From Tomocerus qinae (lineage: Eukaryota; Arthropoda; Collembola; Entomobryomorpha; Tomoceridae), in NCBI GenBank assembly GCA_020055645.1, contig CM034546.1, positions 57,164,001 through 57,228,000 on the forward strand: DNA of 64,000 bases. The letters run 5' to 3'. How positions within the stretch are numbered: the stretch's first letter is position 1; each line of letters begins with the position of its first letter. Below the pieces are notes generated by a model, which saw nothing but the letters and a program-made list of their open reading frames with translations, was not told the origin of the DNA and did not search any database. This document shows positions 1 through 47,216 of the stretch, piece after piece. The position numbers and the translations under genes were made by a program.

Positions 1-1277
1 TCTAGGATCAAAAATATGTCGTCAATAAAGCGTACATTAAATGCTACTTCAGGTTTGTTATGAAAGTTTGATTGTAGTTCCCTTGATACAGTTATATTAG
101 CAATGACTACACTAGCACTTGAACCCATTGGAATTCCTTTGTGTTGTTTATAATATAAATTATTGAATTCTACATAGCTATAATTTAAAGTCCAATTTAA
201 CAGTTTTTCCAATTGTTTAGTTGATAATGGTACATTATCATTTAACAAGTGCCTGTTTTCTTCATACGCTGCTAAACAGTGATGTTTACAAGTAATAATT
301 GGTAAATTAGGATACAAAGATTCTATATCTGCTGTTACAAGTACATACTTTCGGTTGGGGTTTAATTTAACTTGATTTAACCGTAAAATGAAATGTGTTG
401 TATCTATTATTACTTCTGGAAGTAGATTCATTACTGGTTGCAAAGTTATATCCACTAATTTGCTGTAATTTCTATTACCACATTTAACGTTACTACTTAT
501 TGGTCTAACAGGTGGGAACGTTTTAAAATCTTTGTGTACTTTTGGTAAACCATGAAACATAGCAGGTTCATAGTTTGTGTCTATTAAATCTTTAACTTTT
601 AATTCAGGTGGAAACTTGTAGCTTTTAATTTCATCAATCATTGATTCCATTTCATAAATAAAATGCGCTTTAGTTGAAGGCAGGTATACTTCTAAATTAT
701 TTAACTGTTTGAGGATTTCTTTATCATAATCAACCCTATCCATAATACAAATACCAGCGTTTTTATCCGCAGATTTTATAATAATATTTTTTTCCGATTG
801 AATGTTTTTAAATGACTCCAAAAATTCTTTAGAAATTAATTTATTTGTTGTAGTATTAGCCTTTATTCTTTTCATAAAGTTGTCACATGAATCTTTTGGT
901 TTATTAAAAATTAAGGGTTCTATAGAAGAGTGTACTTTGTTGTATCCAGTTTTACTTTTCTTAAAACTATGTACAAGCTTTTCAATATTATTTAATGAAC
1001 ATTTTGGTTTATTAAAAAAGTATACAAACCAAGCTATCTTTCTCATTCCTTCATTAAAACTCATAATCAAATTCTTAGGATTAGGCGAAAGAGTAAAACT
1101 GAATTTCATTCCTAAATATAACAACGTTTTTATCTCAAATGGTAGTGGAATTTTATCTCTGGTTAAATTGTGTACTGAATTTTGATTTTGCTTACTAATT
1201 ACATCATTGTAAAGTTTATAATATAAATTAATCCTTTTCCTATTAGGATATTGTCTTAATTTAAAAACCTTACACAT
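1..1277 (-). CDS. PLE reverse transcriptase ORF2, unit A (3' end outside window)
   Basis: It starts at ATG 1277. The sequence matches unit C over this stretch, including the four-T run at the position where unit B is shifted, so the frame appears uninterrupted to the window edge. It covers the DKG-type motif, RT motif A and motif B; the window ends just past motif C. Confidence 0.75.
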   Translation of the reverse strand, partial: MCKVFKLRQYPNRKRINLYYKLYNDVISKQNQNSVHNLTRDKIPLPFEIKTLLYLGMKFSFTLSPNPKNLIMSFNEGMRKIAWFVYFFNKPKCSLNNIEKLVHSFKKSKTGYNKVHSSIEPLIFNKPKDSCDNFMKRIKANTTTNKLISKEFLESFKNIQSEKNIIIKSADKNAGICIMDRVDYDKEILKQLNNLEVYLPSTKAHFIYEMESMIDEIKSYKFPPELKVKDLIDTNYEPAMFHGLPKVHKDFKTFPPVRPISSNVKCGNRNYSKLVDITLQPVMNLLPEVIIDTTHFILRLNQVKLNPNRKYVLVTADIESLYPNLPIITCKHHCLAAYEENRHLLNDNVPLSTKQLEKLLNWTLNYSYVEFNNLYYKQHKGIPMGSSASVVIANITVSRELQSNFHNKPEVAFNVRFIDDIFLIL

Positions 1278-1376
1278 GTTAATAAATTTACGACATTTTT
1301 TCTTCTTCTTAGAGTTAGTGGTGATAATTATACTTAAATCTATATCGTTACAACTGTCTTCTCTAATGGCAATTTC

Positions 1377-2817
1377 CTAATTATTTTCATTATCCTTAGT
1401 CGTGGGAGTATTGATAATTTTATTGTTATCATTAGTGATTAATTGTTTGTCTCTTAGATCATTATTACAATTTCTTTTATGGTCAACTCTGCTATGTCCC
1501 CTGAATCTATTATTAAAATTCCTACCTGGGAAATTTTTACCTACATTGCCGTTGGTATTTCTAGAAAAGTGGATTTGTTTTGGTTTAAAGTTTCTGTTGA
1601 ATTTTCTAAAATTACGTTTCTGGTTGTAATTATAATTTCCTCCATCCTGTCTATTAATTTCAGCGTATCTTGGACCTCCTTCTGAATTAACATTATCTTT
1701 TGTGAATAAATTAACATTATCTGCTTTGTCTTTTGCTTTAGACAAAAATAGCTCATATTCTTTTTTGGTTTGTTCTCCTTCTAGAATTTCCAGTCCGTTT
1801 TGAATCCTATCAGTTATTTTTACTGCAAACCGATTAAAATTAAAATCTGGTACCTTGTGATTGGGATCTTTTCTCCAAAACGGCAAAATGTTTCTAACTC
1901 GACCTTCTTTTGTTTTCCAATCAATATTTTTTTCTTTAAAATTATTACCAAATTCCATCTTTGCTTTAAAATACCCAATAGCAAACAAATGACAATACAT
2001 GTTCTCTCTATCTCTGTCTTGTAAGTCATTTGTGTGGGCAGAAATGTAATTCAGAATTTCATTATTGATTTTTAGTAGTAAAAATTCTTTTTGAAATCGA
2101 TTGCCTCTAATAGCTGATTTTTGGACTTGTAACACTAAAGCCTTTTTTAATTCACAAAATTCATTATGGGTAGTTAAAGGTAGTAAATTAAATTGAGGTA
2201 TACGAAAATTATAAGTTGGGTTCACAAGTGTAACTGAGTTGTTTGTGGCATTTCTAACATTCTTTTGAAAATATTCAATTTGGAAGTATGACATAAAATT
2301 TGAAATGATAGGTTTAAAAATACTATCGGCTATTAATAGCTCCGGTATATTAGATAACATTTCATTCATGTCTTTTTCGTCTAATAAAACAGGCGGAAAT
2401 TGAGGATATTTAAGCAGCATTTCTACGTATTGTTTCACTAGCTCATCTGTGTCATAATATTCAATAATGTAATCATGTATACAACAAATGTTTTGCGGAT
2501 CAATCTTACGTAACTTTTCCATAATAGATTTATGATCCATTTTCTGTTTCTTTTGAACAGCTTCTTCTTCCGGAGATCCCAAATGCCTTTTTTCCTTTTG
2601 GAGTAGAAGTGAAAGTAGGTTGGCCGTTGCAGATTGGAATTTGTTTTTGATTATTTGGCATCATTGTCTCATTGAGCAGTGAAGGTGAAGGGGGTGTTTT
2701 ATTAACTGGACTCTGTGTTTCCATTAACATTGACATTGACCGGCCAGACATCATTTGTGAGTTCGGTGAGTAGTGAAATCCATGTGATGAATTTTTTGGT
2801 GAAGGATTCTTAAACAT
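1377..2817 (-). pseudogene. PLE ORF1, unit A (one homopolymer frameshift)
   Basis: It is split into an N-terminal frame (2817-2530) and a 401-codon frame (2582-1377) by a T6 run near 2588 where units B and D have T5. Everything after that point, including the basic C-terminus, is intact. The TAG at 1379-1377 is in frame with ORF2. Confidence 0.8.
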
Positions 2818-3407
2818 TTTTCAGAGATTCCGTTGAATGCAAAAGGTCGATTTAAGACAGCAGTTTTTTGTAACGAACTTGGATGTTTTGATATGCAATA
2901 AATTTATCACAAGTTAATCGGCCCAAATCCAAAAAATGATTAAAAAATTTCTTCAATTCAAAATCCAGTTTGGTAATAGGACAACATGTTTCGATTTAAT
3001 CTTTGTCAAGTCCAACTGGAATACATTACATAAAAATACATTGTTCGTTTTAATTTTATGTTCAGTAATGTAATACTATACAAGGAATCACTTTGAAGTC
3101 TTTGACATTAAAATAATAATTATATTATATAGTAATTAACTTTTACAGATAATATTGTAAGTTTGTATAAAATAATATAAAATAAATATAAAATAATATA
3201 AAATAAAATAATTGCCATTAGAGGAGACTTACCCAAATAACAGTGTTATGTATCTAAATTAGTACACTGTACATTGTGTTAAATTGTGTTAAATTTATAA
3301 ATATAATTACAATTAATGAGATTAATCATTCGCTCATTGTCAGCTGAAAGAGCGCGGTTCTCATGTTACTCTATTTTTGAACATTGGCGCAAATTCATTT
3401 TCCCCAT

Positions 3408-5373
3408 TTATTTTAGGAGATATTGATTTAGTGAATTAGTCTTACAAAAGGCCAGAGAGATACTTAGGTTGTCTAAAATCTGTAGAAATCTATTGTCTAT
3501 ACATTGTTTCATCGCCTCAATTAATTGTTCATTAAAGATTTTCCCCAAATTGTTAATATTTTTGTAGAATGGTAAAACTAGAAAGATTTTGTTACCCGTG
3601 TTAATTGCATTATTAAATACCTCAGAAATACTAACATTATATTGGTTTAAAACCTCTGGTGTATGTAAATACAAATTAGTAATAAGCATTTTTTTCTTAG
3701 GCCTTAAGATTTCGTATCTTGTTATTTTACTTAGCTTATCAATGCTATTTTCTATTAAACTATTTGGATAGCCTCTTGGTATGAATTTCTCAAGTTCATT
3801 TTTGATTTCAATTTTTGCAGCGTCTTCATTTGATGTACATCTTATAATTCTGATACCAGCAGAGAATGGTAGGGATTGTTTTACATGAAAAGGGTGATTA
3901 GAAAGGTAGTGTAAGTATTGGTGCTTGCTCATAGGTTTTCTGAAAATGCTTGTACTTAGTTCATTATTATCATTTATATTTACAGTTAAATCTAGAAAAT
4001 TCACAGTTTTGTCATTAACATTATAGGTAAAGGTTAAGAAATTATGTTTTAACATAGTATTAATGTAATTATTAACATCAATAATTTCTGTAACATCTAG
4101 GATCAAAAATATGTCGTCAATAAAGCGTACATTAAATGCTACTTCAGGTTTGTTATGAAAGTTTGATTGTAGTTCCCTTGATACAGTTATATTAGCAATG
4201 ACTACACTAGCACTTGAACCCATTGGAATTCCTTTGTGTTGTTTATAATATAAATTATTGAATTCTACATAGCTATAATTTAAAGTCCAATTTAACAGTT
4301 TTTCCAATTGTTTAGTTGATAATGGTACATTATCATTTAACAAGTGCCTGTTTTCTTCATACGCTGCTAAACAGTGATGTTTACAAGTAATAATTGGTAA
4401 ATTAGGATACAAAGATTCTATATCTGCTGTTACAAGTACATACTTTCGGTTGGGGTTTAATTTAACTTGATTTAACCGTAAAATGAAATGTGTTGTATCT
4501 ATTATTACTTCTGGAAGTAGATTCATTACTGGTTGCAAAGTTATATCCACTAATTTGCTGTAATTTCTATTACCACATTTAACGTTACTACTTATTGGTC
4601 TAACAGGTGGGAACGTTTTAAAATCTTTGTGTACTTTTGGTAAACCATGAAACATAGCAGGTTCATAGTTTGTGTCTATTAAATCTTTAACTTTTTAATT
4701 CAGGTGGAAACTTGTAGCTTTTAATTTCATCAATCATTGATTCCATTTCATAAATAAAATGCGCTTTAGTTGAAGGCAGGTATACTTCTAAATTATTTAA
4801 CTGTTTGAGGATTTCTTTATCATAATCAACCCTATCCATAATACAAATACCAGCGTTTTTATCCGCAGATTTTATAATAATATTTTTTTCCGATTGAATG
4901 TTTTTAAATGACTCCAAAAATTCTTTAGAAATTAATTTATTTGTTGTAGTATTAGCCTTTATTCTTTTCATAAAGTTGTCACATGAATCTTTTGGTTTAT
5001 TAAAAATTAAGGGTTCTATAGAAGAGTGTACTTTGTTGTATCCAGTTTTACTTTTCTTAAAACTATGTACAAGCTTTTCAATATTATTTAATGAACATTT
5101 TGGTTTATTAAAAAAGTATACAAACCAAGCTATCTTTCTCATTCCTTCATTAAAACTCATAATCAAATTCTTAGGATTAGGCGAAAGAGTAAAACTGAAT
5201 TTCATTCCTAAATATAACAACGTTTTTATCTCAAATGGTAGTGGAATTTTATCTCTGGTTAAATTGTGTACTGAATTTTGATTTTGCTTACTAATTACAT
5301 CATTGTAAAGTTTATAATATAAATTAATCCTTTTCCTATTAGGATATTGTCTTAATTTAAAAACCTTACACAT
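3408..5373 (-). pseudogene. PLE reverse transcriptase ORF2, unit B (one frameshift)
   Basis: The N-terminal 228 codons run from 5373 to 4687. An extra T at about 4692 then shifts the frame, and the RT palm, thumb and C-terminal extension continue from 4655 to the stop at 3408 (415 codons from an internal Met). This copy shows that the RT domain and the C-terminal linker form one continuous frame when the run near 3690 is T7. Read together, the full ORF2 is about 655 codons, shorter than endonuclease-bearing PLE proteins. Confidence 0.85.
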
Positions 5374-7537
5374 GTTAATAAATTTACGACATTTTTTCTT
5401 CTTCTTAGAGTTAGTGGTGATAATTATACTTAAATCTATATCGTTACAACTGTCTTCTCTAATGGCAATTTCCTAATTATTTTCATTATCCTTAGTCGTG
5501 GGAGTATTGATAATTTTATTGTTATCATTAGTGATTAATTGTTTGTCTCTTAGATCATTATTACAATTTCTTTTATGGTCAACTCTGCTATGTCCCTGAA
5601 TCTATTATTAAAATTCCTACCTGGGAAATTTTTTACCTACATTGCCGTTGGTATTTCTAGAAAAGTGGATTTGTTTTGGTTTAAAGTTTCTGTTGAATTT
5701 TCTAAAATTACGTTTCTGGTTGTAATTATAATTTCCTCCATCCTGTCTATTAATTTCAGCGTATCTTGGACCTCCTTCTGAATTAACATTATCTTTTGTG
5801 AATAAATTAACATTATCTGCTTTGTCTTTTGCTTTAGACAAAAATAGCTCATATTCTTTTTGGTTTGTTCTCCTTCTAGAATTTCCAGTCCGTTTTGAAT
5901 CCTATCAGTTATTTTTACTGCAAACCGATTAAAATTAAAATCTGGTACCTTGTGATTGGGATCTTTTCTCCAAAACGGCAAAATGTTTCTAACTCGACCT
6001 TCTTTTGTTTTCCAATCAATATTTTTTTCTTTAAAATTATTACCAAATTCCATCTTTGCTTTAAAATACCCAATAGCAAACAAATGACAATACATGTTCT
6101 CTCTATCTCTGTCTTGTAAGTCATTTGTGTGGGCAGAAATGTAATTCAGAATTTCATTATTGATTTTTAGTAGTAAAAATTCTTTTTGAAATCGATTGCC
6201 TCTAATAGCTGATTTTTGGACTTGTAACACTAAAGCCTTTTTTAATTCACAAAATTCATTATGGGTAGTTAAAGGTAGTAAATTAAATTGAGGTATACGA
6301 AAATTATAAGTTGGGTTCACAAGTGTAACTGAGTTGTTTGTGGCATTTCTAACATTCTTTTGAAAATATTCAATTTGGAAGTATGACATAAAATTTGAAA
6401 TGATAGGTTTAAAAATACTATCGGCTATTAATAGCTCCGGTATATTAGATAACATTTCATTCATGTCTTTTTCGTCTAATAAAACAGGCGGAAATTGAGG
6501 ATATTTAAGCAGCATTTCTACGTATTGTTTCACTAGCTCATCTGTGTCATAATATTCAATAATGTAATCATGTATACAACAAATGTTTTGCGGATCAATC
6601 TTACGTAACTTTTCCATAATAGATTTATGATCCATTTTCTGTTTCTTTTGAACAGCTTCTTCTTCCGGAGATCCCAAATGCCTTTTTCCTTTTGGAGTAG
6701 AAGTGAAAGTAGGTTGGCCGTTGCAGATTGGAATTTGTTTTTGATTATTTGGCATCATTGTCTCATTGAGCAGTGAAGGTGAAGGGGGTGTTTTATTAAC
6801 TGGACTCTGTGTTTCCATTAACATTGACATTGACCGGCCAGACATCATTTGTGAGTTCGGTGAGTAGTGAAATCCATGTGATGAATTTTTTGGTGAAGGA
6901 TTCTTAAACATTTTTCAGAGATTCCGTTGAATGCAAAAGGTCGATTTAAGACAGCAGTTTTTTGTAACGAACTTGGATGTTTTGATATGCAATAAATTTA
7001 TCACAAGTTAATCGGCCCAAATCCAAAAAATGATTAAAAAATTTCTTCAATTCAAAATCCAGTTTGGTAATAGGACAACATGTTTCGATTTAATCTTTGT
7101 CAAGTCCAACTGGAATACATTACATAAAAATACATTGTTCGTTTTAATTTTATGTTCAGTAATGTAATACTATACAAGGAATCACTTTGAAGTCTTTGAC
7201 ATTAAAATAATAATTATATTATATAGTAATTAACTTTTACAGATAATATTGTAAGTTTGTATAAAATAATATAAAATAAATATAAAATAATATAAAATAA
7301 AATAATTGCCATTAGAGGAGACTTACCCAAATAACAGTGTTATGTATCTAAATTAGTACACTGTACATTGTGTTAAATTGTGTTAAATTTATAAATATAA
7401 TTACAATTAATGAGATTAATCATTCGCTCATTGTCAGCTGAAAGAGCGCGGTTCTCATGTTACTCTATTTTTGAACATTGGCGCAAATTCATTTTCCCCA
7501 TTTATTTTAGGAGATATTGATTTAGTGAATTAGTCTT
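3444..7537 (-). mobile_element. PLE unit B (complete)
   Basis: A 4094-bp unit. It is the only unit whose ORF2 C-terminal region reads through the T-run that shifts the frame in units C and D, but it has its own single-base indels: an extra T at the run near 4692, a missing T near 5858, and a C loss plus a T gain near 5595-5632. Confidence 0.9.
5473..6911 (-). pseudogene. PLE ORF1, unit B (homopolymer frameshifts near the C-terminus)
   Basis: The frame runs from ATG at 6911 through the N-terminal and central parts, matching unit D, then shifts at the shortened T-run near 5858. The basic C-terminal region continues in another frame (5841-5617), with further one-base changes near 5595-5632 before the TAG at 5475-5473. 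The N-terminal T-run near 6685 is the open T5 form. Confidence 0.8.
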
Positions 7538-9465
7538 ACAAAAGGCCAGAGAGATACTTAGGTTGTCTAAAATCTGTAGAAATCTATTGTCTATACATTG
7601 TTTCATCGCCTCAATTAATTGTTCATTAAAGATTTTCCCCAAATTGTTAATATTTTTGTAGAATGGTAAAACTAGAAAGATTTTGTTACCCGTGTTAATT
7701 GCATTATTAAATACCTCAGAAATACTAACATTATATTGGTTTAAAACCTCTGGTGTATGTAAATACAAATTAGTAATAAGCATTTTTTCTTAGGCCTTAA
7801 GATTTCGTATCTTGTTATTTTACTTAGCTTATCAATGCTATTTTCTATTAAACTATTTGGATAGCCTCTTGGTATGAATTTCTCAAGTTCATTTTTGATT
7901 TCAATTTTTGCAGCGTCTTCATTTGATGTACATCTTATAATTCTGATACCAGCAGAGAATGGTAGGGATTGTTTTACATGAAAAGGGTGATTAGAAAGGT
8001 AGTGTAAGTATTGGTGCTTGCTCATAGGTTTTCTGAAAATGCTTGTACTTAGTTCATTATTATCATTTATATTTACAGTTAAATCTAGAAAATTCACAGT
8101 TTTGTCATTAACATTATAGGTAAAGGTTAAGAAATTATGTTTTAACATAGTATTAATGTAATTATTAACATCAATAATTTCTGTAACATCTAGGATCAAA
8201 AATATGTCGTCAATAAAGCGTACATTAAATGCTACTTCAGGTTTGTTATGAAAGTTTGATTGTAGTTCCCTTGATACAGTTATATTAGCAATGACTACAC
8301 TAGCACTTGAACCCATTGGAATTCCTTTGTGTTGTTTATAATATAAATTATTGAATTCTACATAGCTATAATTTAAAGTCCAATTTAACAGTTTTTCCAA
8401 TTGTTTAGTTGATAATGGTACATTATCATTTAACAAGTGCCTGTTTTCTTCATACGCTGCTAAACAGTGATGTTTACAAGTAATAATTGGTAAATTAGGA
8501 TACAAAGATTCTATATCTGCTGTTACAAGTACATACTTTCGGTTGGGGTTTAATTTAACTTGATTTAACCGTAAAATGAAATGTGTTGTATCTATTATTA
8601 CTTCTGGAAGTAGATTCATTACTGGTTGCAAAGTTATATCCACTAATTTGCTGTAATTTCTATTACCACATTTAACGTTACTACTTATTGGTCTAACAGG
8701 TGGGAACGTTTTAAAATCTTTGTGTACTTTTGGTAAACCATGAAACATAGCAGGTTCATAGTTTGTGTCTATTAAATCTTTAACTTTTAATTCAGGTGGA
8801 AACTTGTAGCTTTTAATTTCATCAATCATTGATTCCATTTCATAAATAAAATGCGCTTTAGTTGAAGGCAGGTATACTTCTAAATTATTTAACTGTTTGA
8901 GGATTTCTTTATCATAATCAACCCTATCCATAATACAAATACCAGCGTTTTTATCCGCAGATTTTATAATAATATTTTTTTCCGATTGAATGTTTTTAAA
9001 TGACTCCAAAAATTCTTTAGAAATTAATTTATTTGTTGTAGTATTAGCCTTTATTCTTTTCATAAAGTTGTCACATGAATCTTTTGGTTTATTAAAAATT
9101 AAGGGTTCTATAGAAGAGTGTACTTTGTTGTATCCAGTTTTACTTTTCTTAAAACTATGTACAAGCTTTTCAATATTATTTAATGAACATTTTGGTTTAT
9201 TAAAAAAGTATACAAACCAAGCTATCTTTCTCATTCCTTCATTAAAACTCATAATCAAATTCTTAGGATTAGGCGAAAGAGTAAAACTGAATTTCATTCC
9301 TAAATATAACAACGTTTTTATCTCAAATGGTAGTGGAATTTTATCTCTGGTTAAATTGTGTACTGAATTTTGATTTTGCTTACTAATTACATCATTGTAA
9401 AGTTTATAATATAAATTAATCCTTTTCCTATTAGGATATTGTCTTAATTTAAAAACCTTACACAT
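7502..9465 (-). pseudogene. PLE reverse transcriptase ORF2, unit C (one frameshift)
   Basis: The same protein as in unit D: open from ATG at 9465 to 7741 (574 codons), with the catalytic motifs DIESLYPN, GIPMGSSAS and FIDD intact. The frame then shifts at the T6 run near 7784 and continues as a 93-codon frame to the stop at 7502. The reading frame also extends upstream of the ATG, without a stop, for 33 codons to the ORF1 TAG at 9567-9565. Confidence 0.85.
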
Positions 9466-9567
9466 GTTAATAAATTTACGACATTTTTTCTTCTTCTTAG
9501 AGTTAGTGGTGATAATTATACTTAAATCTATATCGTTACAACTGTCTTCTCTAATGGCAATTTCCTA
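9463..9567 (-). promoter_or_regulatory. In-frame TAG junction between ORF1 and ORF2 (candidate stop-codon readthrough)
   Basis: On the minus strand ORF1 ends AAT AAT TAG GAA ATT. From this TAG to the ORF2 ATG is exactly 102 nt, with 33 sense codons and no stop, including a run of five Lys codons. The spacing is the same in units A (1379 to 1277), B (5475 to 5373) and C (9567 to 9465); unit D is one A shorter (13661 to 13560). Readthrough of the amber codon would give an ORF1-ORF2 fusion, as gammaretroviruses do for gag-pol. The shared frame is observed; use of readthrough is inference, and reinitiation at the ATG is the alternative. Confidence 0.45.
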
Positions 9568-11006
9568 ATTATTTTCATTATCCTTAGTCGTGGGAGTATT
9601 GATAATTTTATTGTTATCATTAGTGATTAATTGTTTGTCTCTTAGATCATTATTACAATTTCTTTTATGGTCAACTCTGCTATGTCCCCTGAATCTATTA
9701 TTAAAATTCCTACCTGGGAAATTTTTACCTACATTGCCGTTGGTATTTCTAGAAAAGTGGATTTGTTTTGGTTTAAAGTTTCTGTTGAATTTTCTAAAAT
9801 TACGTTTCTGGTTGTAATTATAATTTCCTCCATCCTGTCTATTAATTTCAGCGTATCTTGGACCTCCTTCTGAATTAACATTATCTTTTGTGAATAAATT
9901 AACATTATCTGCTTTGTCTTTTGCTTTAGACAAAAATAGCTCATATTCTTTTTTGGTTTGTTCTCCTTCTAGAATTTCCAGTCCGTTTTGAATCCTATCA
10001 GTTATTTTTACTGCAAACCGATTAAAATTAAAATCTGGTACCTTGTGATTGGGATCTTTTCTCCAAAACGGCAAAATGTTTCTAACTCGACCTTCTTTTG
10101 TTTTCCAATCAATATTTTTTTCTTTAAAATTATTACCAAATTCCATCTTTGCTTTAAAATACCCAATAGCAAACAAATGACAATACATGTTCTCTCTATC
10201 TCTGTCTTGTAAGTCATTTGTGTGGGCAGAAATGTAATTCAGAATTTCGTTATTGATTTTTAGTAGTAAAAATTCTTTTTGAAATCGATTGCCTCTAATA
10301 GCTGATTTTTGGACTTGTAACACTAAAGCCTTTTTTAATTCACAAAATTCATTATGGGTAGTTAAAGGTAGTAAATTAAATTGAGGTATACGAAAATTAT
10401 AAGTTGGGTTCACAAGTGTAACTGAGTTGTTTGTGGCATTTCTAACATTCTTTTGAAAATATTCAATTTGGAAGTATGACATAAAATTTGAAATGATAGG
10501 TTTAAAAAATACTATCGGCTATTAATAGCTCCGGTATATTAGATAACATTTCATTCATGTCTTTTTCGTCTAATAAAACAGGCGGAAATTGAGGATATTT
10601 AAGCAGCATTTCTACGTATTGTTTCACTAGCTCATCTGTGTCATAATATTCAATAATGTAATCATGTATACAACAAATGTTTTGCGGATCAATCTTACGT
10701 AACTTTTCCATAATAGATTTATGATCCATTTTCTGTTTCTTTTGAACAGCTTCTTCTTCCGGAGATCCCAAATGCCTTTTTTCCTTTTGGAGTAGAAGTG
10801 AAAGTAGGTTGGCCGTTGCAGATTGGAATTTGTTTTTGATTATTTGGCATCATTGTCTCATTGAGCAGTGAAGGTGAAGGGGGTGTTTTATTAACTGGAC
10901 TCTGTGTTTCCATTAACATTGACATTGACCGGCCAGACATCATTTGTGAGTTCGGTGAGTAGTGAAATCCATGTGATGAATTTTTTGGTGAAGGATTCTT
11001 AAACAT
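9565..11006 (-). pseudogene. PLE ORF1, unit C (two homopolymer frameshifts)
   Basis: The sequence matches the 479-residue ORF1 of unit D but is split into three frames: 11006-10719, 10771-10502 and 10482-9565. The breaks are a T6 run (T5 in units B and D) near 10780 and an extra A in the run near 10502-10508. Both are single-base changes in mononucleotide runs, so sequencing error is a real alternative to genuine decay. Confidence 0.8.
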
Positions 11007-11596
11007 TTTTCAGAGATTCCGTTGAATGCAAAAGGTCGATTTAAGACAGCAGTTTTTTGTAACGAACTTGGATGTTTTGATATGCAATAAATTTATCACA
11101 AGTTAATCGGCCCAAATCCAAAAAATGATTAAAAAATTTCTTCAATTCAAAATCCAGTTTGGTAATAGGACAACATGTTTCGATTTAATCTTTGTCAAGT
11201 CCAACTGGAATACATTACATAAAAATACATTGTTCGTTTTAATTTTATGTTCAGTAATGTAATACTATACAAGGAATCACTTTGAAGTCTTTGACATTAA
11301 AATAATAATTATATTATATAGTAATTAACTTTTACAGATAATATTGTAAGTTTGTATAAAATAATATAAAATAAATATAAAATAATATAAAATAAAATAA
11401 TTGCCATTAGAGGAGACTTACCCAAATAACAGTGTTATGTATCTAAATTAGTACACTGTACATTGTGTTAAATTGTGTTAAATTTATAAATATAATTACA
11501 ATTAATGAGATTAATCATTCGCTCATTGTCAGCTGAAAGAGCGCGGTTCTCATGTTACTCTATTTTTGAACATTGGCGCAAATTCATTTTCCCCAT

Positions 11597-13560
11597 TTAT
11601 TTTAGGAGATATTGATTTAGTGAATTAGTCTTACAAAAGGCCAGAGAGATACTTAGGTTGTCTAAAATCTGTAGAAATCTATTGTCTATACATTGTTTCA
11701 TCGCCTCAATTAATTGTTCATTAAAGATTTTCCCCAAATTGTTAATATTTTTGTAGAATGGTAAAACTAGAAAGATTTTGTTACCCGTGTTAATTGCATT
11801 ATTAAATACCTCAGAAATACTAACATTATATTGGTTTAAAACCTCTGGTGTATGTAAATACAAATTAGTAATAAGCATTTTTTCTTAGGCCTTAAGATTT
11901 CGTATCTTGTTATTTTACTTAGCTTATCAATGCTATTTTCTATTAAACTATTTGGATAGCCTCTTGGTATGAATTTCTCAAGTTCATTTTTGATTTCAAT
12001 TTTTGCAGCGTCTTCATTTGATGTACATCTTATAATTCTGATACCAGCAGAGAATGGTAGGGATTGTTTTACATGAAAAGGGTGATTAGAAAGGTAGTGT
12101 AAGTATTGGTGCTTGCTCATAGGTTTTCTGAAAATGCTTGTACTTAGTTCATTATTATCATTTATATTTACAGTTAAATCTAGAAAATTCACAGTTTTGT
12201 CATTAACATTATAGGTAAAGGTTAAGAAATTATGTTTTAACATAGTATTAATGTAATTATTAACATCAATAATTTCTGTAACATCTAGGATCAAAAATAT
12301 GTCGTCAATAAAGCGTACATTAAATGCTACTTCAGGTTTGTTATGAAAGTTTGATTGTAGTTCCCTTGATACAGTTATATTAGCAATGACTACACTAGCA
12401 CTTGAACCCATTGGAATTCCTTTGTGTTGTTTATAATATAAATTATTGAATTCTACATAGCTATAATTTAAAGTCCAATTTAACAGTTTTTCCAATTGTT
12501 TAGTTGATAATGGTACATTATCATTTAACAAGTGCCTGTTTTCTTCATACGCTGCTAAACAGTGATGTTTACAAGTAATAATTGGTAAATTAGGATACAA
12601 AGATTCTATATCTGCTGTTACAAGTACATACTTTCGGTTGGGGTTTAATTTAACTTGATTTAACCGTAAAATGAAATGTGTTGTATCTATTATTACTTCT
12701 GGAAGTAGATTCATTACTGGTTGCAAAGTTATATCCACTAATTTGCTGTAATTTCTATTACCACATTTAACGTTACTACTTATTGGTCTAACAGGTGGGA
12801 ACGTTTTAAAATCTTTGTGTACTTTTGGTAAACCATGAAACATAGCAGGTTCATAGTTTGTGTCTATTAAATCTTTAACTTTTAATTCAGGTGGAAACTT
12901 GTAGCTTTTAATTTCATCAATCATTGATTCCATTTCATAAATAAAATGCGCTTTAGTTGAAGGCAGGTATACTTCTAAATTATTTAACTGTTTGAGGATT
13001 TCTTTATCATAATCAACCCTATCCATAATACAAATACCAGCGTTTTTATCCGCAGATTTTATAATAATATTTTTTTCCGATTGAATGTTTTTAAATGACT
13101 CCAAAAATTCTTTAGAAATTAATTTATTTGTTGTAGTATTAGCCTTTATTCTTTTCATAAAGTTGTCACATGAATCTTTTGGTTTATTAAAAATTAAGGG
13201 TTCTATAGAAGAGTGTACTTTGTTGTATCCAGTTTTACTTTTCTTAAAACTATGTACAAGCTTTTCAATATTATTTAATGAACATTTTGGTTTATTAAAA
13301 AAGTATACAAACCAAGCTATCTTTCTCATTCCTTCATTAAAACTCATAATCAAATTCTTAGGATTAGGCGAAAGAGTAAAACTGAATTTCATTCCTAAAT
13401 ATAACAACGTTTTTATCTCAAATGGTAGTGGAATTTTATCTCTGGTTAAATTGTGTACTGAATTTTGATTTTGCTTACTAATTACATCATTGTAAAGTTT
13501 ATAATATAAATTAATCCTTTTCCTATTAGGATATTGTCTTAATTTAAAAACCTTACACAT
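11597..13560 (-). pseudogene. PLE reverse transcriptase ORF2, unit D (one frameshift)
   Basis: ATG is at 13560. The frame is open for 574 codons to 11836, then a T6 run near 11877-11882 shifts it; the conserved C-terminal part continues in another frame to the stop at 11597. PLE marks in order (residues of the 574-codon frame): the DKG-type motif as ADKNAG near 170; RT motif A, DIESLYPN, near 317; motif B, GIPMGSSAS, near 381; motif C, FIDD, near 417; then FRKP and LHYLSNHP in the thumb near 477-495, diagnostic of PLEs. The C-terminus ends about 90 residues after the shift in a segment matching the linker that normally precedes the GIY-YIG nuclease. No GIY-YIG residues follow. The role is RNA-templated DNA synthesis. 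The shift may be an assembly error, because unit B has T7 and reads through. Confidence 0.85.
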
Positions 13561-13658
13561 GTTAATAAATTTACGACATTTTTCTTCTTCTTAGAGTTAG
13601 TGGTGATAATTATACTTAAATCTATATCGTTACAACTGTCTTCTCTAATGGCAATTTC

Positions 13659-15098
13659 CTAATTATTTTCATTATCCTTAGTCGTGGGAGTATTGATAAT
13701 TTTATTGTTATCATTAGTGATTAATTGTTTGTCTCTTAGATCATTATTACAATTTCTTTTATGGTCAACTCTGCTATGTCCCCTGAATCTATTATTAAAA
13801 TTCCTACCTGGGAAATTTTTACCTACATTGCCGTTGGTATTTCTAGAAAAGTGGATTTGTTTTGGTTTAAAGTTTCTGTTGAATTTTCTAAAATTACGTT
13901 TCTGGTTGTAATTATAATTTCCTCCATCCTGTCTATTAATTTCAGCGTATCTTGGACCTCCTTCTGAATTAACATTATCTTTTGTGAATAAATTAACATT
14001 ATCTGCTTTGTCTTTTGCTTTAGACAAAAATAGCTCATATTCTTTTTTGGTTTGTTCTCCTTCTAGAATTTCCAGTCCGTTTTGAATCCTATCAGTTATT
14101 TTTACTGCAAACCGATTAAAATTAAAATCTGGTACCTTGTGATTGGGATCTTTTCTCCAAAACGGCAAAATGTTTCTAACTCGACCTTCTTTTGTTTTCC
14201 AATCAATATTTTTTTCTTTAAAATTATTACCAAATTCCATCTTTGCTTTAAAATACCCAATAGCAAACAAATGACAATACATGTTCTCTCTATCTCTGTC
14301 TTGTAAGTCATTTGTGTGGGCAGAAATGTAATTCAGAATTTCATTATTGATTTTTAGTAGTAAAAATTCTTTTTGAAATCGATTGCCTCTAATAGCTGAT
14401 TTTTGGACTTGTAACACTAAAGCCTTTTTTAATTCACAAAATTCATTATGGGTAGTTAAAGGTAGTAAATTAAATTGAGGTATACGAAAATTATAAGTTG
14501 GGTTCACAAGTGTAACTGAGTTGTTTGTGGCATTTCTAACATTCTTTTGAAAATATTCAATTTGGAAGTATGACATAAAATTTGAAATGATAGGTTTAAA
14601 AATACTATCGGCTATTAATAGCTCCGGTATATTAGATAACATTTCATTCATGTCTTTTTCGTCTAATAAAACAGGCGGAAATTGAGGATATTTAAGCAGC
14701 ATTTCTACGTATTGTTTCACTAGCTCATCTGTGTCATAATATTCAATAATGTAATCATGTATACAACAAATGTTTTGCGGATCAATCTTACGTAACTTTT
14801 CCATAATAGATTTATGATCCATTTTCTGTTTCTTTTGAACAGCTTCTTCTTCCGGAGATCCCAAATGCCTTTTTCCTTTTGGAGTAGAAGTGAAAGTAGG
14901 TTGGCCGTTGCAGATTGGAATTTGTTTTTGATTATTTGGCATCATTGTCTCATTGAGCAGTGAAGGTGAAGGGGGTGTTTTATTAACTGGACTCTGTGTT
15001 TCCATTAACATTGACATTGACCGGCCAGACATCATTTGTGAGTTCGGTGAGTAGTGAAATCCATGTGATGAATTTTTTGGTGAAGGATTCTTAAACAT
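13659..15098 (-). CDS. PLE ORF1 protein, 479 aa (intact copy)
   Basis: The frame is uninterrupted from ATG at 15098 to TAG at 13661-13659. The first 80 residues are rich in Ser, Pro, Met, Asn and Gln and look disordered. The middle (about 95-370) is mostly alpha-helical in character with conserved hydrophobic spacing. The last 110 residues are very basic and Asn/Arg/Gly/Phe-rich, with repeated RNF, RGR and FNR-like groups, suggesting RNA binding. No zinc knuckle or enzymatic motif is visible. I infer an RNA-packaging ORF1 protein similar in role to those of other retroelements; the family is not recognised. The TAG stop is followed by 33 sense codons before the ORF2 ATG (see the junction entry). 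Confidence 0.8.
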   Translation of the reverse strand: MFKNPSPKNSSHGFHYSPNSQMMSGRSMSMLMETQSPVNKTPPSPSLLNETMMPNNQKQIPICNGQPTFTSTPKGKRHLGSPEEEAVQKKQKMDHKSIMEKLRKIDPQNICCIHDYIIEYYDTDELVKQYVEMLLKYPQFPPVLLDEKDMNEMLSNIPELLIADSIFKPIISNFMSYFQIEYFQKNVRNATNNSVTLVNPTYNFRIPQFNLLPLTTHNEFCELKKALVLQVQKSAIRGNRFQKEFLLLKINNEILNYISAHTNDLQDRDRENMYCHLFAIGYFKAKMEFGNNFKEKNIDWKTKEGRVRNILPFWRKDPNHKVPDFNFNRFAVKITDRIQNGLEILEGEQTKKEYELFLSKAKDKADNVNLFTKDNVNSEGGPRYAEINRQDGGNYNYNQKRNFRKFNRNFKPKQIHFSRNTNGNVGKNFPGRNFNNRFRGHSRVDHKRNCNNDLRDKQLITNDNNKIINTPTTKDNENN

Positions 15099-15242
15099 TT
15101 TTCAGAGATTCCGTTGAATGCAAAAGGTCGATTTAAGACAGCAGTTTGTAACGAACTTGGATGTTTTGATATGCAATAAATTTATCACAAGTTAATCGGC
15201 CCAAATCCAAAAAATGATTAAAAAATTTCTTCAATTCAAAAT

Positions 15243-15297
15243 CCAGTTTGGTAATAGGACAACATGTTTCGATTTAATCTTTGTCAAGTCCAACTGG
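15243..15297 (-). ncRNA. Hammerhead-ribozyme-like fold in the PLE 5' region (core non-consensus)
   Basis: Reading the minus strand: outer stem CCAGTT/AACTGG plus GG/CC; a three-pair hairpin GAT-TAA-ATC; then CGAAAC, a two-pair hairpin CA-TGT-TG, and GTC. This is the order stem I, stem II, GAAA, stem III, GTC cleavage triplet of a type I hammerhead, which PLEs are known to carry. The strand that should read CTGATGA instead reads CTTGACAAA, lacking the usual G8 and adding a base, so it may be inactive or coincidental. The same 55 bp is present at 11154-11208, 7059-7113 and 2965-3019. Confidence 0.35.
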
Positions 15298-15825
15298 AAT
15301 ACATTACATAAAAATACATTGTTCGTTTTAATTTTATGTTCAGTAATGTAATACTATACAAGGAATCACTTTGAAGTCTTTGACATTAAAATAATAATTA
15401 TATTATATAGTAATTAACTTTTACAGATAATATTGTAAGTTTGTATAAAATAATATAAAATAAATATAAAATAATATAAAATAAAATAATTGCCATTAGA
15501 GGAGACTTACCCAAATAACAGTGTTATGTATCTAAATTAGTACACTGTACATTGTGTTAAATTGTGTTAAATTTATAAATATAATTACAATTAATGAGAT
15601 TAATCATTCGCTCATTGTCAGCTGAAAGAGCGCGGTTCTCATGTTACTCTATTTTTGAACATTGGCGCAAATTCATTTTCCCCATTTATTTTAGGAGATA
15701 TTGATTTAGTGAATTAGTCTTTAGAATTAGCCTTAAGGCTTGGCTAAAAATTAATCCTAAAGTCATTGTATTTTATATATTTCATTTAGCCAACTCGACC
15801 AGGGTTTTCAAGTTTCATTAAAAGG

Positions 15826-18647: not shown

Positions 18648-20419
18648 CTAAGGTTTTTCTCCACTATGAATACGTAAGTGGTAATTTAAATTACTTCGTT
18701 GGGTAAATGATTTTCCGCAAATGGTGCACTTATGAAGTTTTCCTCCACTGTGTATACGCGAATGAGTTCTTAAATAAGTTGGATTAGAAAATGATTTGAC
18801 ACACAAGTTACACTTATAAATCTTTTCTCTATTGTGTGTATGTATATGGTTGTCCAAGTTATAATTGTTGGCGAAGGATTTCTGACACAGATTACACTTG
18901 TAAGGTTTTTCTCCAGTGTGTACTCGAATAATATGTTTGATTAAACTGGTTTTTTGTGAAAATGATTGGTCACATGTGCTACATTTAAAAGGTTTTTCTC
19001 CATTATGAGCACGTATGTGAATGTATAAACTCCCTTTTTTAAAAAACAATTTATCACAAAAATTACACTTGAATGGTTTCTCTCTATTTCCATTGTGAAT
19101 ATTTAAGTGAAGAGTTAATTGCCTTTTGGTTGCAAACGTTTTTTCGCATTTGGTACATCCGTAAGGCTTTTCTTTATTGTGACATCGTATATGGTCGTTC
19201 AAGCTAGTTTTGTGAGAAAATGATTTCTGACACAAATTACACTTGTAAGGTTTTTCTCCACTGTGTACTCGCCTATGTCTTTTTAAATAGGTTGCCTGTG
19301 TGAAAGTTTTATCACAAACGGTGCACTTGTAAGGCCTTTCTCCATTATGAGTACGAATATGAATGTTTAAGGTATTTTTAAGAGAAAAGGTTATGTAACA
19401 CAAATTACACTTGTAGGGTTTCTCTCCAGTGTGCACACGTTTGTGAATTATTAAAAGACTTGGGAAAGGAAATGATTTATTACATTGGTCACATTCAAAA
19501 GATTTGATTATTTTACGAGGTTTTTGTTTTTCGGGGAACTGCTTGCTACAAGAATCACATTGAACTGATTTAACACTTTGGATTGTTTTTTTATGCAGAA
19601 CTTTTTGCCTTTTTAAAAACGGTTGTTGACATCGGATACAATTTTTAGTCATTTTCTCACTGCAGGCTTTTAAATCTCTAATCCCGTGGCTACTAAAACT
19701 CTTTTCGTTATCGCTGGCACTTTTGAAGTCATTTTCCTTTTCCAAATCACCTTTTTGTAAATTGTTTAATAAATTATTTCCACAGGATAATAATGTTTTG
19801 CAAAAGCTATATTGACCAGTGCTGGATCCATTACTGTCATCAAGACTTCTTATACATTTTCTTGCATTCTGGTTTTCCTTGTGTATAGTAGAGGAACTCT
19901 CGCAACGGATTATGTGTTTAGTGTCCTTGGCAAGGTCATCATTTTCCTTCGCTCTGAAATTGCAATTCAAATTTTTGAAAACCACACATCTGCAAGGTAA
20001 AAGAGTTTCTGGCTCTTAAAATGCATTTTATAATATTCTATACATTGCATCCCATTGATTATCTTCTCTCTATTAATTTTTATTACGTACTTATCGTTAC
20101 AATATCAAAAATCGTAAAAAATATATCTATAAGGACGATGTTTTAGTCTGTTTAAGTAATACCTTGTTTCAAAATTTGCTTCTTGCTATTCTAATAAGCA
20201 CAAAATGAGAAAAAAATTCAAAATGTGGGAGTACTGTATCTGAGAGTACGTTACCTGATCATAATACCATTTAAGAAAATTAATTCAGCTCTTGAAAACC
20301 AAAAACCTTTACCTTATAAGTTTCTGGTAATGTTTATCGAAATCCTGTTTACTTAGACGATCCAACTTAATTTCAAATGATTTAGCCACGAAAAATACGA
20401 CGGTTCCCTTCAGCTTCAT
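18648..20419 (-). CDS. ZNF-A: C2H2 zinc-finger protein, 2 exons, 482 aa
   Basis: Exon 1 is 20313-20419 (ATG at 20419, starting MKLKGTVVFF), with donor AG|GTAAAGG. Exon 2 is 18648-19989, with acceptor TTGCAG. The joined frame is 1449 nt and the exon 1 peptide is conserved in ZNF-B. A roughly 160-residue Ser/Asn/Lys-rich linker is followed by ten consecutive C2H2 fingers with TGEKPY-type linkers (for example HTGEKPYKC). Finger 7 has a H-x4-H spacing. The protein is probably a nuclear DNA-binding regulator; its target is unknown. The frame ends at TAG in the linker GEKP-stop, and an intact-looking eleventh finger follows in frame. Confidence 0.88.
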
Positions 20420-21874: not shown

Positions 21875-22969
21875 GCAAGTACCCCAGGGCCGCCCCGCCC
21901 GCCCGTCAGATTTGGGGATCTGGTCCTGCGGGCGGGCGGCTCTAGGGGGCTCTACAGCCGCCCGGGCGGCGCTAGGGGACTTCTCTATCTAGATGTCCCC
22001 TAAAGCCGCCCCGCCCGAACGGGCGGCTGTGGGGGACATCTCTATCTACATGTCTCCCAGAGCCGCCCGACCGGGCGGGGCGGCTCTGGGACAGAGCTGC
22101 CCGCCTTTCTCTAAAGAATTTCATAGGAAGTTGTAATAAGGACACTTATCTGTACCTATAGTACCTACATTAATTATTAAGGACTTCTTTCAGAAAAACA
22201 GAATATATTACTGTTTACGCGACTAAATCACTAAATAATTATTCTATAAACTTTTTTGTACAATAAATATGTCTCAAATATAACTATCCCCAAACTAACT
22301 TGTATGCTACTGTTTTTTTTTTGATTTTTCGATGAAAAGAGCGTGACATTATTTGACTATTAATTACCGTCATATTTAGTACACTGAATTAAAAATCAGC
22401 TCACTTCTTCAAGCGAGGTTAGTTATATTTTATTTTAGTGGCTATTTTAGTTATATAGTGGCTATTTTAGTTATATAGTGGCTATTTTAGTTATATAGTG
22501 GCTGTTTTAGTTATATAGTGGCTATTTTAGTTATATAGTGGCTATTTTAGTTATATAGTGGCTATTTTAGTTATATAGTGGCTATTTTAGTTATATAGTG
22601 GCTATTTTAGTTATATAGTGGCTATTTTAGTTATATAGTAACTATTTTAGTTATATAGTAACTATTTTAATTATTCAGTGGCTATTTTAGTTATTTAGTG
22701 GCGATTTTAGTTTAATTTTTATTTTTTTGGGGTATATTATTTATTTTGATGGTGAATTAATTTCTTTAGAGAAAGGCGGGCGGCTCTAGGGGACATCAAG
22801 ATAGAGATGTCCCCCAGAGCCGCCCGCTCGTTCGGGGCGGCTCAGGGGGACATCTAGATAGAGATGTCCCCCACAGCCGCCCGCTCGGGCGGGGCGGCTC
22901 TAGGGGACATCTAGATAGAGAGGTCCCCTAGCGCCGCCCGCCAGGGCGGGGCGGCCCTGGGGTACTTGC
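21875..22969. mobile_element. GC-rich foldback transposon with about 210-245-bp inverted arms
   Basis: The left arm (21875-22120) and right arm (22760-22969) are inverted copies of each other. They start gcaagtaccccagggccg and end with its complement cggccctggggtacttgc. The arms are built from alternating short palindromes: GCCGCCC/GGGCGGC pairs and about 26-bp near-palindromes of the form GGGGACATCT-AGATAG-AGATGTCCCC. The arms are far more GC-rich than the AT-rich surroundings. The centre is AT-rich with a 20-bp tandem repeat and no ORF. Candidate target duplication aagttag lies at 21868-21874 and 22975-22981, the right one offset by five bases. It resembles foldback-type elements; the family is not identified. 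Confidence 0.85.
22431..22714. repeat. 20-bp minisatellite, about 14 copies
   Basis: The unit is ttatatagtggctattttag, repeated head to tail with few changes, at the centre of the foldback element. The last copies diverge. It is non-coding. Confidence 0.95.
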
Positions 22970-37760: not shown

Positions 37761-39860
37761 TTAATTTGCTAAGTAAAGGTCCATAAACAGTGATTGATTG
37801 CTGATGGCCATTTTCTTGAATCCTTCTGTTTGAATAACCTCAGCTTTATTTCTAATTATTTTTGGAAAGCAAAAAAATAGCCAATGTCAAAAAGATTCAT
37901 TGCAGATAGCTAATTAGTAATTAATTATACACAATTAAAAAAAATGATAGGAAACTTACATGTTGAAATATTTAATAGCTTTCACCTTCAGATTCAAAGC
38001 GTTGTGCATATCTGCCAAACACAGAGTTTCAGCAACATTTTCCACGGAAAGATGTTCTGCAATGATCTCTTCAGATTCTTCTTTTAATCCTGTTATGTCA
38101 TACTTTTCGGCAATCTGTGAAAACTCTGAAGCTTTGACTTTCAAGGCTATTGGATCTATACAACCACAAAATAATAAAAATCATAACAGCTTCAGTTGTG
38201 TAAAGATCAAAAATGGAATTTAAATTATCAAGCTTACTTATTCTTACTGTAAGCTTATTTATAACTGGGGACTAACTATACTTTGGATTGCTAATATACG
38301 TCTTAAGTCTTTGTACTTTATATCCATTATATTCCGTGAATACCTGTAAATGTACCGCAGCATCCAATAAACAATGTAATAGTTGAAGTCGGTAATTTTG
38401 ACGGTATTGTTGATGGATCCAAACATTGGATTTAAGAACATTGCCTTGAAAACTGAACTCCGACCTATAAAATGAGTTTTTATGTTCAGGGAATTTAATC
38501 AAAAATCATCCTGATTGAAAGCAACATTCTATTTTTCACACCACGATTCAAGATAATATTATACTATTATGGCATATTCGACAACTCTGAACCTGGGAAG
38601 GAAGCTGGTTTATACGATAATGTTAAAGTTGAGAAATTTATTTAACCGTCGCCCTCATGACTATCACTTTACTTTAATTTACTTTATAATAATAATTTAA
38701 ATGTTAACTTTATATAATTTAATTTACTTGCTAAATTGTTTTATGTTACGTTATAACTTTACGTTTCCTTAAGGCTTGGCTAAAATTCTGGCCATTTTAT
38801 TTTATTATACTTCATTTCACTTAATGAGGGCGCGGGTTAAGAAATATTGCTGTGTAACTTACATAATTATATTAATAGAGAATTATGTTATTTATGTTTT
38901 AACCTTACATGACAAGATCCCTTTGTGAGCCTTGAAGGTTTTGTTTTGCGTCTCAATTATAACATCACTGAATTGTGAAGAATGGAATAAATCCTTGAAA
39001 TTCATAAGCCATTCATTGTTTCTTCGAATTTTTTTATTTACGGGATCCAATCTCTCACCGGAAAAAAGTTTCTGCACAGGAGGAAGTTTAATACACAATG
39101 AACAATAAATTTTGAGAGTATCATCATCAAGTAAATGATTCTGTGGGTCTAATAAAAGTTCCGTCTTCATAAATCTACGCCAACCATGCCTTTCTGGTTT
39201 CTTAAATGTATGATTCATTTCTGGGAAAAAAATAATTTATATTTAATACAATTAATAATCATAATATTATTCATGTATCAATACCGACAAATTTGCAATT
39301 ATCAAAAATACTAAAAATGGACAATTATTTCACGTTACCATGATGTTTGATAAGTTCGCCTGCTTGATTCAGAATGCCAATTTTACAAGTTACAACAGTT
39401 GGTTTCATTCCTTTGAGAAACTTTAAATATATCGATAAGTATTCGCATTTTTCATCGGATTCGTTTTTCTTATCTGAAAACTTGCATTCCCGAAGCTGCC
39501 TGTTAATTTTTAAATATCCAATTTAAAAGACCTTTAACCATACTAATTATTCAAGCATTTTAAAAGGTTACCACTCATAATCAATCCCTCCTTCGGAAAG
39601 AGGGAATGGAGGTGAAGTTAAACGCTGATTCGGTTTTTGAAGTTCTTGTCTGAAATTCCTTATATCATAACGGTAAATTTTTGATACTTCCTTATGCTAT
39701 AAAAATGATTTTCATGGATTTAATAAATACATTTTACTAAAAATTCAATAATAATAATAACAAACTAAAATATATTTATATGTACCTCGGTGACGGCCAT
39801 ATAATCATACATATTAGCTATGTTATGTCTTGCTCTTTTAATTCCTGAAGTAACACTCAT
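37761..39860 (-). pseudogene. BTB3: MATH-BTB gene with lost exon 6 acceptor
   Basis: Exons: E1 39786-39860, E2 39572-39696, E3 39339-39499, E4 38909-39220, E5 38344-38464, E6 37960-38166, E7 37761-37851. All lengths match BTB2 and the frame would be 1092 nt. The E6 acceptor, TTTAG in every other copy, reads TTTTG here. The conserved GW at the start of E6 became GC. E5 has lost D/E residues (FLNPMFGSINN). E1-E4 are otherwise intact with the usual MATH and BTB motifs. Either E6 is skipped or replaced by a cryptic site, or this is a young pseudogene. Confidence 0.7.
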
Positions 39861-46385: not shown

Positions 46386-46435
46386 GTGCCCATGAGTATT
46401 TGCTTTCGGTGAGAAAAAACCCAACCCAAAAACCC

Positions 46436-47216
46436 GGGTTTTGAGTTTTTGAGCACAAACCCAGGTTTTGAATTTTTGAGAAAAACCCCAGGTTTTGGTT
46501 TTTTAGAAAAAACCCAGGTTTTGGGTTTTTTTTAAAAAAACCCAGGTTTTGGGTTTTTGAGAAAAATCCCAGGTTTTGGGTTTTTGAGAAAAATCCCAGG
46601 TTTTGGGTTTTTGAGAAAAATCCCAGGTTTTGGGTTTTTGAGAAAAATCCCAGGTTTTGGGTTTTTGAGAAAAATCCCAGGTTTTGGGTTTTTGTGAAAA
46701 ATCCCAGGTTTTGGGTTTTTGAGAAAAATCCCAGGTTTTGGGTTTTTGAGAAAAATCCCAGGTTTTGGGTTTTTGAGAAAAATCCCAGGTTTTGGGTTTT
46801 TGAGAAAAATCCCAGGTTTTTGAGAAAAATCCCAGGTTTTGGGTTTTTGAGAAAAATCCCAGGTTTTGGGTTTTTGAGAAAAATCCCAGGTTTTGTGTTT
46901 TTGAGAAAAATCCCAGGTTTTGGGTTTTTGAGAAAAATCCCAGGTTTTGGGTTTTTGAGAAAAATCCCAGGTTTTGGGTTTTTGAGAAAAATCCCAGGTT
47001 TTGGGTTTTTGAGAAAAATACCAGGTTTTGGGTTTTTGAGAAAAATCCCAGGTTTTGGGTTTTTGAGAAAAATCCCAGGTTTTGGGTTTTTGAGAAAAAT
47101 CCCAGGTTTTGGGTTTTTGAGAAAAATCCCAGGTTTTGGGTTTTTGAGAAAAAACCCGGGTTTTGGAGCAAAAACCCGGGTTTTTGCTGTTTGCCACCCA
47201 AAAACCCGGGTTTTTT
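46436..47216. repeat. 27-bp minisatellite, about 27 copies
   Basis: The unit contains gggtttttgagaaaaatccc followed by aggtttt. The period is exactly 27 except for one short copy near 46811. Because the unit has no stop codons, all three minus frames and one plus frame stay open, giving false proteins of 180-299 codons. The edges carry cccgggtttt motifs, and the right flank ends ggtttttcatgtcctg (47232), like hAT-type ends elsewhere in the window, so the array may be an expanded subterminal repeat of such an element (about 46386-47232). Confidence 0.93.

Follow-up and report, generated by a model that had tools for sequence, protein, structure and literature searches.

The 64,000-nt stretch of DNA analysed here (the window; C1:57164001-57228000), from the springtail Tomocerus qinae, opens with a head-to-tail array of a Penelope-like element (PLE) that has two open reading frames (ORFs) and encodes a reverse transcriptase (RT) without the GIY-YIG endonuclease. 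The genome comprises 334 Mb in 115 contigs, and the array lies in the interior of C1, a contig of 140.45 Mb. We interpret the array as one retrotransposition locus of this two-ORF, endonuclease-less element, a reading that we hold with a probability of about 0.6, and its insertion is recent. The evidence comprises a PLE-type RT, the lack of GIY-YIG, a 3’ end common to dispersed copies, 5’ truncations and a partial copy that precedes the full units, together with an intron in the pseudo-long terminal repeat (pLTR), a hammerhead-type motif, the contig-interior site and the absence of a target duplication there.

Structure of the array

In full, the array occupies C1:57162769-57179721 on the minus strand, overshooting window position 1 by 1231 nt, and is made up of a 577-nt 5’ partial copy followed by four full units of 4092, 4095, 4094 and 4095 nt (Table 1). 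An earlier interpretation made from the letters alone, hereafter the sequence-only reading, had described nearly four complete 4.09-kb units joined head to tail with almost no substitutions. The head-to-tail arrangement was confirmed by the start-to-start spacing of blocks (4089-4096 nt) and by 93-100% ungapped identity of 300-nt blocks, the lower values being caused by one-base shifts inside a block. The unit size held up as well; the count needed correction, to four complete units plus the 577-nt partial. Near-absence of substitutions was likewise upheld: the four units differ by a single substitution, at unit position 802 (C in U2 and in L013, a copy elsewhere on C1; T in U1, U3 and U4), and by nine single-base indels, each in a one-base run. 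At the inner junctions, ...GTTACA(A)n is joined directly to CTGCTGTC..., with three A after the C following the partial copy, six at the other three junctions and six at the array’s own 3’ end. Both outer junctions are single, and the units carry private differences.

Table 1. Features of the array and of its empty-site paralog, in window coordinates.
Feature	Position	Strand	Remark
In-window part of tandem array	1..15721	-	3’ end 1231 nt left of window
5’ partial copy, 577 nt	15145..15721	-	unit 3513-4089; pLTR-like; final ORF2 codons and 3’ untranslated region (UTR)
Unit U1, 4092 nt	11053..15144	-	
Unit U2, 4095 nt	6958..11052	-	
Unit U3, 4094 nt	2864..6957	-	
Unit U4, 4095 nt, in-window part	1..2863	-	reaches window -1231; ORF2 open to natural stop
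ORF1 of U1, 479 aa	13659..15098	-	intact; RG/N-rich tail; no Pfam match
ORF2 of U1 as read, 574 aa	11836..13560	-	PLE RT; final residues frame-shifted at A-run
3’ part of ORF2 in other frame	11597..11884	-	linker; natural stop at unit 3548; no GIY-YIG
GT-AG intron, 217 nt, in partial copy	15294..15510	-	unit 3724-3940; present in every unit
Hammerhead-type motif, partial copy	15256..15292	-	core UUGACAA; by pattern
Hammerhead-type motif, U1	11167..11203	-	by pattern
Hammerhead-type motif, U2	7072..7108	-	by pattern
Hammerhead-type motif, U3	2978..3014	-	by pattern
Paralogous segment without insertion (empty site)	38380..39050		junction near 38757; flank comparison

A reverse transcriptase without an endonuclease

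ORF2 encodes a PLE-type RT, bearing the PLE motifs, and its relatives include RT-GIY-YIG proteins; the Pfam RVT_1 match is weak (E 4.6e-4, below the family cut-off), and no PDB relatives were found. According to the sequence-only reading, ORF2 stops after the linker that normally precedes GIY-YIG. That description fits U1 and U2, in which the 574-aa stop results from a run-length frameshift (6 A instead of 7 A at unit 3261), and fails for U4, which also has 6 A there but regains the frame through a second one-base difference at 3303 and continues to the natural stop. The natural end lies ~80 residues beyond the 574-aa stop and likewise includes no endonuclease; with no GIY-YIG after either stop, the identification of ORF2 as a PLE RT lacking this domain was correct. 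Seven A are present at unit 3261 in U3, L013, L015 and L017; ORF2 of U3 is broken at unit position 2261, and L013 (97% alike) has an unbroken ORF2 of 654 aa. These run-length frameshifts may be either real or sequencing errors. ORF1 has relatives in other families of the same genome and no homologues at E<=1e-3 in the protein collection. Its structure model (pLDDT, the predicted local distance difference test score, of 42; all helical) is too poor to use, and no hidden GIY-YIG was found in ORF1 or past the ORF2 stop, the domain being absent at the C-terminus and the N-terminus alike.

The sequence-only reading had pointed to other genomic copies as a place where an intact GIY-YIG domain might be found. 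Reading 900 nt downstream, from near the ORF2 end, by eye in three frames at seven related loci (L013, L016, L019, L023, L026, L027 and L028, the last twice) revealed this domain in 0/8 places, and the end of ORF2 falls at a similar position in all eight. In a Pfam scan of 78 RT relatives, GIY-YIG was not among the best 25 of 39 families, the 14 further families being, by sort order, expected to be single members with E above 0.088; among the best 120 of 278 RT relatives, no entry above P0126 carries PF01541. GIY-YIG PLEs do occur in this genome: there are 14 GIY-YIG matches, and all three fetched (L046, L047 and L048) proved to be RT-linker-GIY-YIG PLEs, which served as a positive control. 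Among the matches listed, the nearest is, by eye, ~0.4 Mb from any related place.

The RT tree comprised 114 sequences, namely, 36 of 79 clade candidates of >=480 aa, seven from this genome, its three GIY-YIG PLEs and 68 others. In this tree, built by a quick method without bootstrap, rooted at midpoint, with long branches elsewhere and with no Athena or Coprina reference identified by name, 43 endonuclease-less RTs form one side of a single branch with a Shimodaira-Hasegawa-like approximate likelihood ratio test (SH-aLRT) support of 100. Across 377 aligned positions of the RT, the endonuclease-less group is 27% identical to a GIY-YIG PLE of the same genome. Among the matches listed, the nearest RT relatives of named origin belong to the springtail Orchesella dallaii. 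When the families of this genome are compared with one another, the proportions of nonsynonymous (pN) and synonymous (pS) differences are 0.18-0.31 and 0.72-0.81 (near saturation) for ORF2 and 0.36-0.42 and 0.75-0.76 for ORF1; these ranges exclude window/L013 and L016/L027, two ORF2 pairs that are nearly identical. The pN of ORF2 is well under its pS, and the RT has therefore been subject to purifying selection in the absence of an endonuclease. The group seems to have been without an endonuclease for a long time.

Intron and hammerhead-type motif in the terminal repeat

The GT...AG stretch is kept in full copies and is missing from four fragments at three loci. The intron-less joints are exact in L021 and L022, and two pieces of L013 have one base changed at the joint. 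These fragments point to RNA templates; inherited loss from one intron-less copy is also possible.

Each terminal repeat further contains a hammerhead-type motif, which ends 114 nt before the unit 3’ end (90 nt in a second family described below) and is a candidate ribozyme by pattern and covariation. The pattern (stem I of >=4 pairs, CTGANGA or TTGANAA, GAAA) gave 37 rows, compared with 0.8 per base-composition-shuffled set, overlapping loci being counted repeatedly and four rows being clearly off the element. Across eight sequences, three of them close kin (window, L013 and L019), 48/48 cells pair and 5/6 pairs change on both sides, with a covariation score of 0.726 versus 0.321 when shuffled (0/500). 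Part of this covariation is built in because pairing in stem I was a requirement of the pattern, with C-G and U-A as the sole options at C3-G8. The like placement on the element strand, which was not demanded by the pattern, holds in most families; the motif of L025 is on the other strand. At C3-G8, three of the eight sequences have C-G and five have U-A, the window’s family being among the latter. Rfam models reported no hammerhead, and none of 70 pattern matches in the viral_contigs collection was confirmed.

Other copies and a second family

A census with the 577-nt 3’ end yielded at least 34 matches, all counts being lower bounds. Full-length matches are the five in the array and those in L017 (100%), L015 (92%) and L013 (89%); same-family pieces lie at 87.53 Mb (L021), 7.77 Mb (L022) and 138.24 Mb (L013). 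Short matches at 58.42 Mb (L019), 3.19 Mb and 62.02 Mb are confined to the hammerhead stretch and possibly represent related families, and the remaining matches fall within the AT-rich part of the intron. L013, L015 and L017 are 5’-truncated single copies that start at unit 601, 1476 and 2057, respectively. With the other copies being truncated or fragmentary, full-length units of the family were found nowhere but in the array, whose four units now seem to be the family’s only full-length source locus. All five of the other loci examined (L013, L015, L017, L021 and L022) end in the common 3’ end GTTACAAA, with 0-2 extra A or TAA. The pLTRs are inverted in L013 and L022, and direct in the array and the second family. 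As a separate observation, C1 makes up 42% of the genome but carries all of the at least 34 matches, which may reflect a chromosome bias.

The second family (L028 and L037, C1:38065078-38075640) consists of a 1,833-nt partial copy and two 4,365-nt units with a common 3’ end and an intact ORF2 of 651 aa without GIY-YIG. Its two units differ by 10 substitutions, nine of them within positions 521-1133 (0.6 kb), and by two indel columns; the clustered substitutions look as if they came from different templates or from gene conversion.

Insertion sites

The array splits one of the region’s duplicated segments, and a paralogous segment that lacks it is continuous over the joint (positions 12-435 of the joined flanks versus paralog, 82%). 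Compared with this empty site, the array site has no target duplication and no net length change. The 9 nt by the 5’ junction match the paralog at 3/9 positions, compared with 15/15 just beyond and 13/14 on the other side of the joint, and are read as probable filler. No abutting duplication was found for the second family, L015, L017 or L021; L013 sits in satellite, where a target duplication is undecidable. L022, an intron-less pLTR fragment at C1:7.77 Mb that is 95% identical, is flanked by an exact and unusually long 77-bp target duplication abutting both junctions.

Proposed mechanism and alternatives

A retrotransposition model consistent with these features would run as follows. The upstream 3’ UTR (pLTR) could act as promoter for the next unit, and the RT, primed by a broken chromosomal end, would begin copying at a constant site within the RNA, immediately ahead of ORF1. 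It would then copy a multi-unit transcript or, on reaching the 5’ end of an RNA, jump to the start point on another, pass through four units and halt inside a fifth, after which the free end would be closed by end-joining. The second family, with the same plan of a partial copy plus units, a common 3’ end and no GIY-YIG, supports this interpretation. Among the suggestions of the sequence-only reading, that of a self-templated amplification or a rolling-circle or recombination product survives in part, the array being probably an RNA-templated (or recombination-expanded) product; the telomere-like alternative does not.

Several considerations weigh against retrotransposition as the whole explanation. 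The first concerns the units themselves, which could also have become identical by unequal exchange: unequal crossing-over or replication slippage after insertion might have enlarged a partial-plus-one-unit copy to four units. We regard this as somewhat unlikely, although a single substitution in four nearly identical units and the 577-nt direct repeat flanking any full unit both favor it. In an exchange between the partial copy and a unit end, the A3 junction of the partial copy would enter the array, where the inner junctions are A6; the A3 at the partial/U1 junction is weak evidence, given that runs can slip. The second family also bears on duplication, its 9/10 substitutions in one 0.6-kb patch fitting different templates better, though gene conversion would do as well. 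Copy number and indels may, moreover, be assembly effects because only the assembly sequence was used and the raw reads were not seen. That the animal has fewer (or more) units than assembled is nevertheless quite improbable: the nine single-base differences in run length, in units that are otherwise identical, resemble long-read errors, but the single outer junctions, the private differences of the units and the independent array of the second family in the same assembly argue against an artefact. Copying in a rolling circle, with unit RNAs cut by the hammerhead and circularised and the RT going round several times, would account for the exact unit repeats, the motif in every unit, and the covariation of stem I and C3-G8 across families. 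To this scenario we give an equally low probability, as hammerhead mutants of PAc, an anole PLE, show no effect on insertion in vitro (PMC11167929), and the hammerhead cut site does not coincide with the unit junction, which is 114 nt beyond the motif (90 nt in the second family); once a circle is closed, however, cutting would leave no trace. C802 in U2 and L013 versus T in U1, U3 and U4 speaks slightly, as a single site, against a single template.

How the chromosome is opened raises further difficulties for the retrotransposition model as proposed. ORF1 may have nuclease activity, its structure model being too poor to exclude this. The 77-bp duplication at L022 means that a staggered cut was made there, and it is possible that the cutting enzyme is supplied in trans, as GIY-YIG PLEs share the genome. 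That the endonuclease of these PLEs generally performs the cutting step for the element is unlikely: their presence (3/3 fetched among 14 GIY-YIG matches) and the staggered break at L022 are in its favor, but there is no abutting duplication at the array, the second family, L015, L017 or L021, and the tree sets the endonuclease-less group apart, with just 27% identity to a GIY-YIG PLE of this genome (377 positions). A telomere-like or terminal amplification system, the function raised by the sequence-only reading, is very nearly untenable here unless the contig was joined wrongly. Published endonuclease-less PLEs are telomere-associated and occur in head-to-tail arrays (PMC6431247), but the array lies in the interior of a 140-Mb contig, at most two TTAGG or CCTAA pentamers occur per 600 nt, and TTAGG repeats exist elsewhere in the genome.

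Absence of telomeric repeats at the array

The telomere-like reading was rejected for this locus: the array is 57 Mb inside its contig, without an adjoining (TTAGG)n tract. In the proposed search for TTAGG near the array, the nearest dimers (CCTAACCTAA) proved to be inside a minisatellite ~8 kb away. Downstream of 24 hammerhead-motif matches, inner units included, each 600-nt stretch contains no more than two single TTAGG or CCTAA pentamers. In the genome, five-fold TTAGG occurs 235 + 296 times, compared with 0 for the reversed control. The sampled contig ends (both of C1 and C5; the starts of C2, C3, C4 and C6) carry no TTAGG tracts and therefore may not be true ends. Many interstitial TTAGG stretches are scattered along C1, for example, at 6315544-6315648.

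Relation to known Penelope-like elements

Endonuclease-less PLEs are, as Craig et al. are said to have reported in 2021, generally restricted to chromosome ends. The Coprina elements of fungi are endonuclease-deficient PLEs that resemble the present element in having a PLE RT without GIY-YIG, two ORFs, a hammerhead near the 3’ end and head-to-tail arrays. The same likenesses extend to the Athena elements or Terminons of rotifers; endonuclease-less PLEs with two ORFs that are arrayed head to tail at telomeres have been reported (PMC6431247). Athena and Coprina attach to chromosome ends via telomere-complementary repeats beside the hammerhead, whereas the array here is internal and lacks a telomeric tract.

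Canonical GIY-YIG PLEs (Penelope/Poseidon, for example, PAc) share with the element partial tandems, pLTRs and inverted pLTRs as well as the pLTR intron, hammerhead, internal sites and internal RT start (PMC11167929, PMC3846280, PMC11722881). Tandem loci, multi-copy mRNA and an RT start inside the RNA are documented for PAc, whose hammerhead is not needed for insertion in vitro (PMC11167929). Adineta PLEs provide published cases of partial tandems, of pLTRs in direct and inverted form and of a junction that lacks a duplication (PMC3846280), and introns in PLE pLTRs have been published as well (PMC11722881). These elements, as well as L046-L048, have a single ORF with an endonuclease, whereas the element described here has two ORFs and none. 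RTs of ~650 aa from metagenomes and Orchesella dallaii (P0001-P0034, P0073-P0125), known here from proteins alone, belong to the same RT group, have the same C-terminal end where aligned and, among the matches listed, carry no PF01541. The element thus has the two-ORF, endonuclease-free plan of the PLEs in PMC6431247 and the inner-chromosome habit of PAc, the Adineta PLEs and the PLEs with pLTR introns.

Tandems, pLTRs, pLTR introns and hammerheads are commonplace in PLEs; less ordinary are the dispersal of an endonuclease-less group inside contigs and the U-A pair at C3-G8 in some families. In our literature search, whose coverage excluded most subscription journals, we came across no account of endonuclease-less PLEs scattered within arthropod chromosomes. 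We tentatively suggest, at somewhat less than even odds, an old arthropod PLE clade without an endonuclease of its own that spreads inside chromosomes by break priming, in the manner of telomerase, and by multi-unit copying, some of its families having a hammerhead with U3-A8 in place of C3-G8. PLE RTs share ancestry with telomerase (PMC3846280, PMC6431247). If this is true, a long-lived endonuclease-less group inserting inside chromosomes would constitute a natural system for DNA-break-primed reverse transcription, and, both kinds of PLE being present in one genome, a direct comparison could cover target duplications, break dependence and help in trans. The U3-A8 hammerheads would be a test of how much change the catalytic core tolerates.

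Other features of the region

Duplicated segments, 74-99% alike, flank the array on both sides (window 16000-64000 and L009-L012). Zinc-finger ORFs also flank it, at L009 2549-3934 and at window 18648-19985 and 35235-36599 (C2H2). The paralogous segments have in common a 57-nt GC-rich minisatellite with a near-palindromic unit (window 21963-22090 and 22778-22962; L009 7164-7348). Elsewhere in the window, a 776-aa ORF at 31518-33848 belongs to a Pao-type long terminal repeat retrotransposon (Peptidase_A17, integrase), a 27-nt satellite of ~28 copies occupies 46428-47166, and a 657-aa open frame with no Pfam match at 1e-5 lies on the minus strand at 47515-49488.

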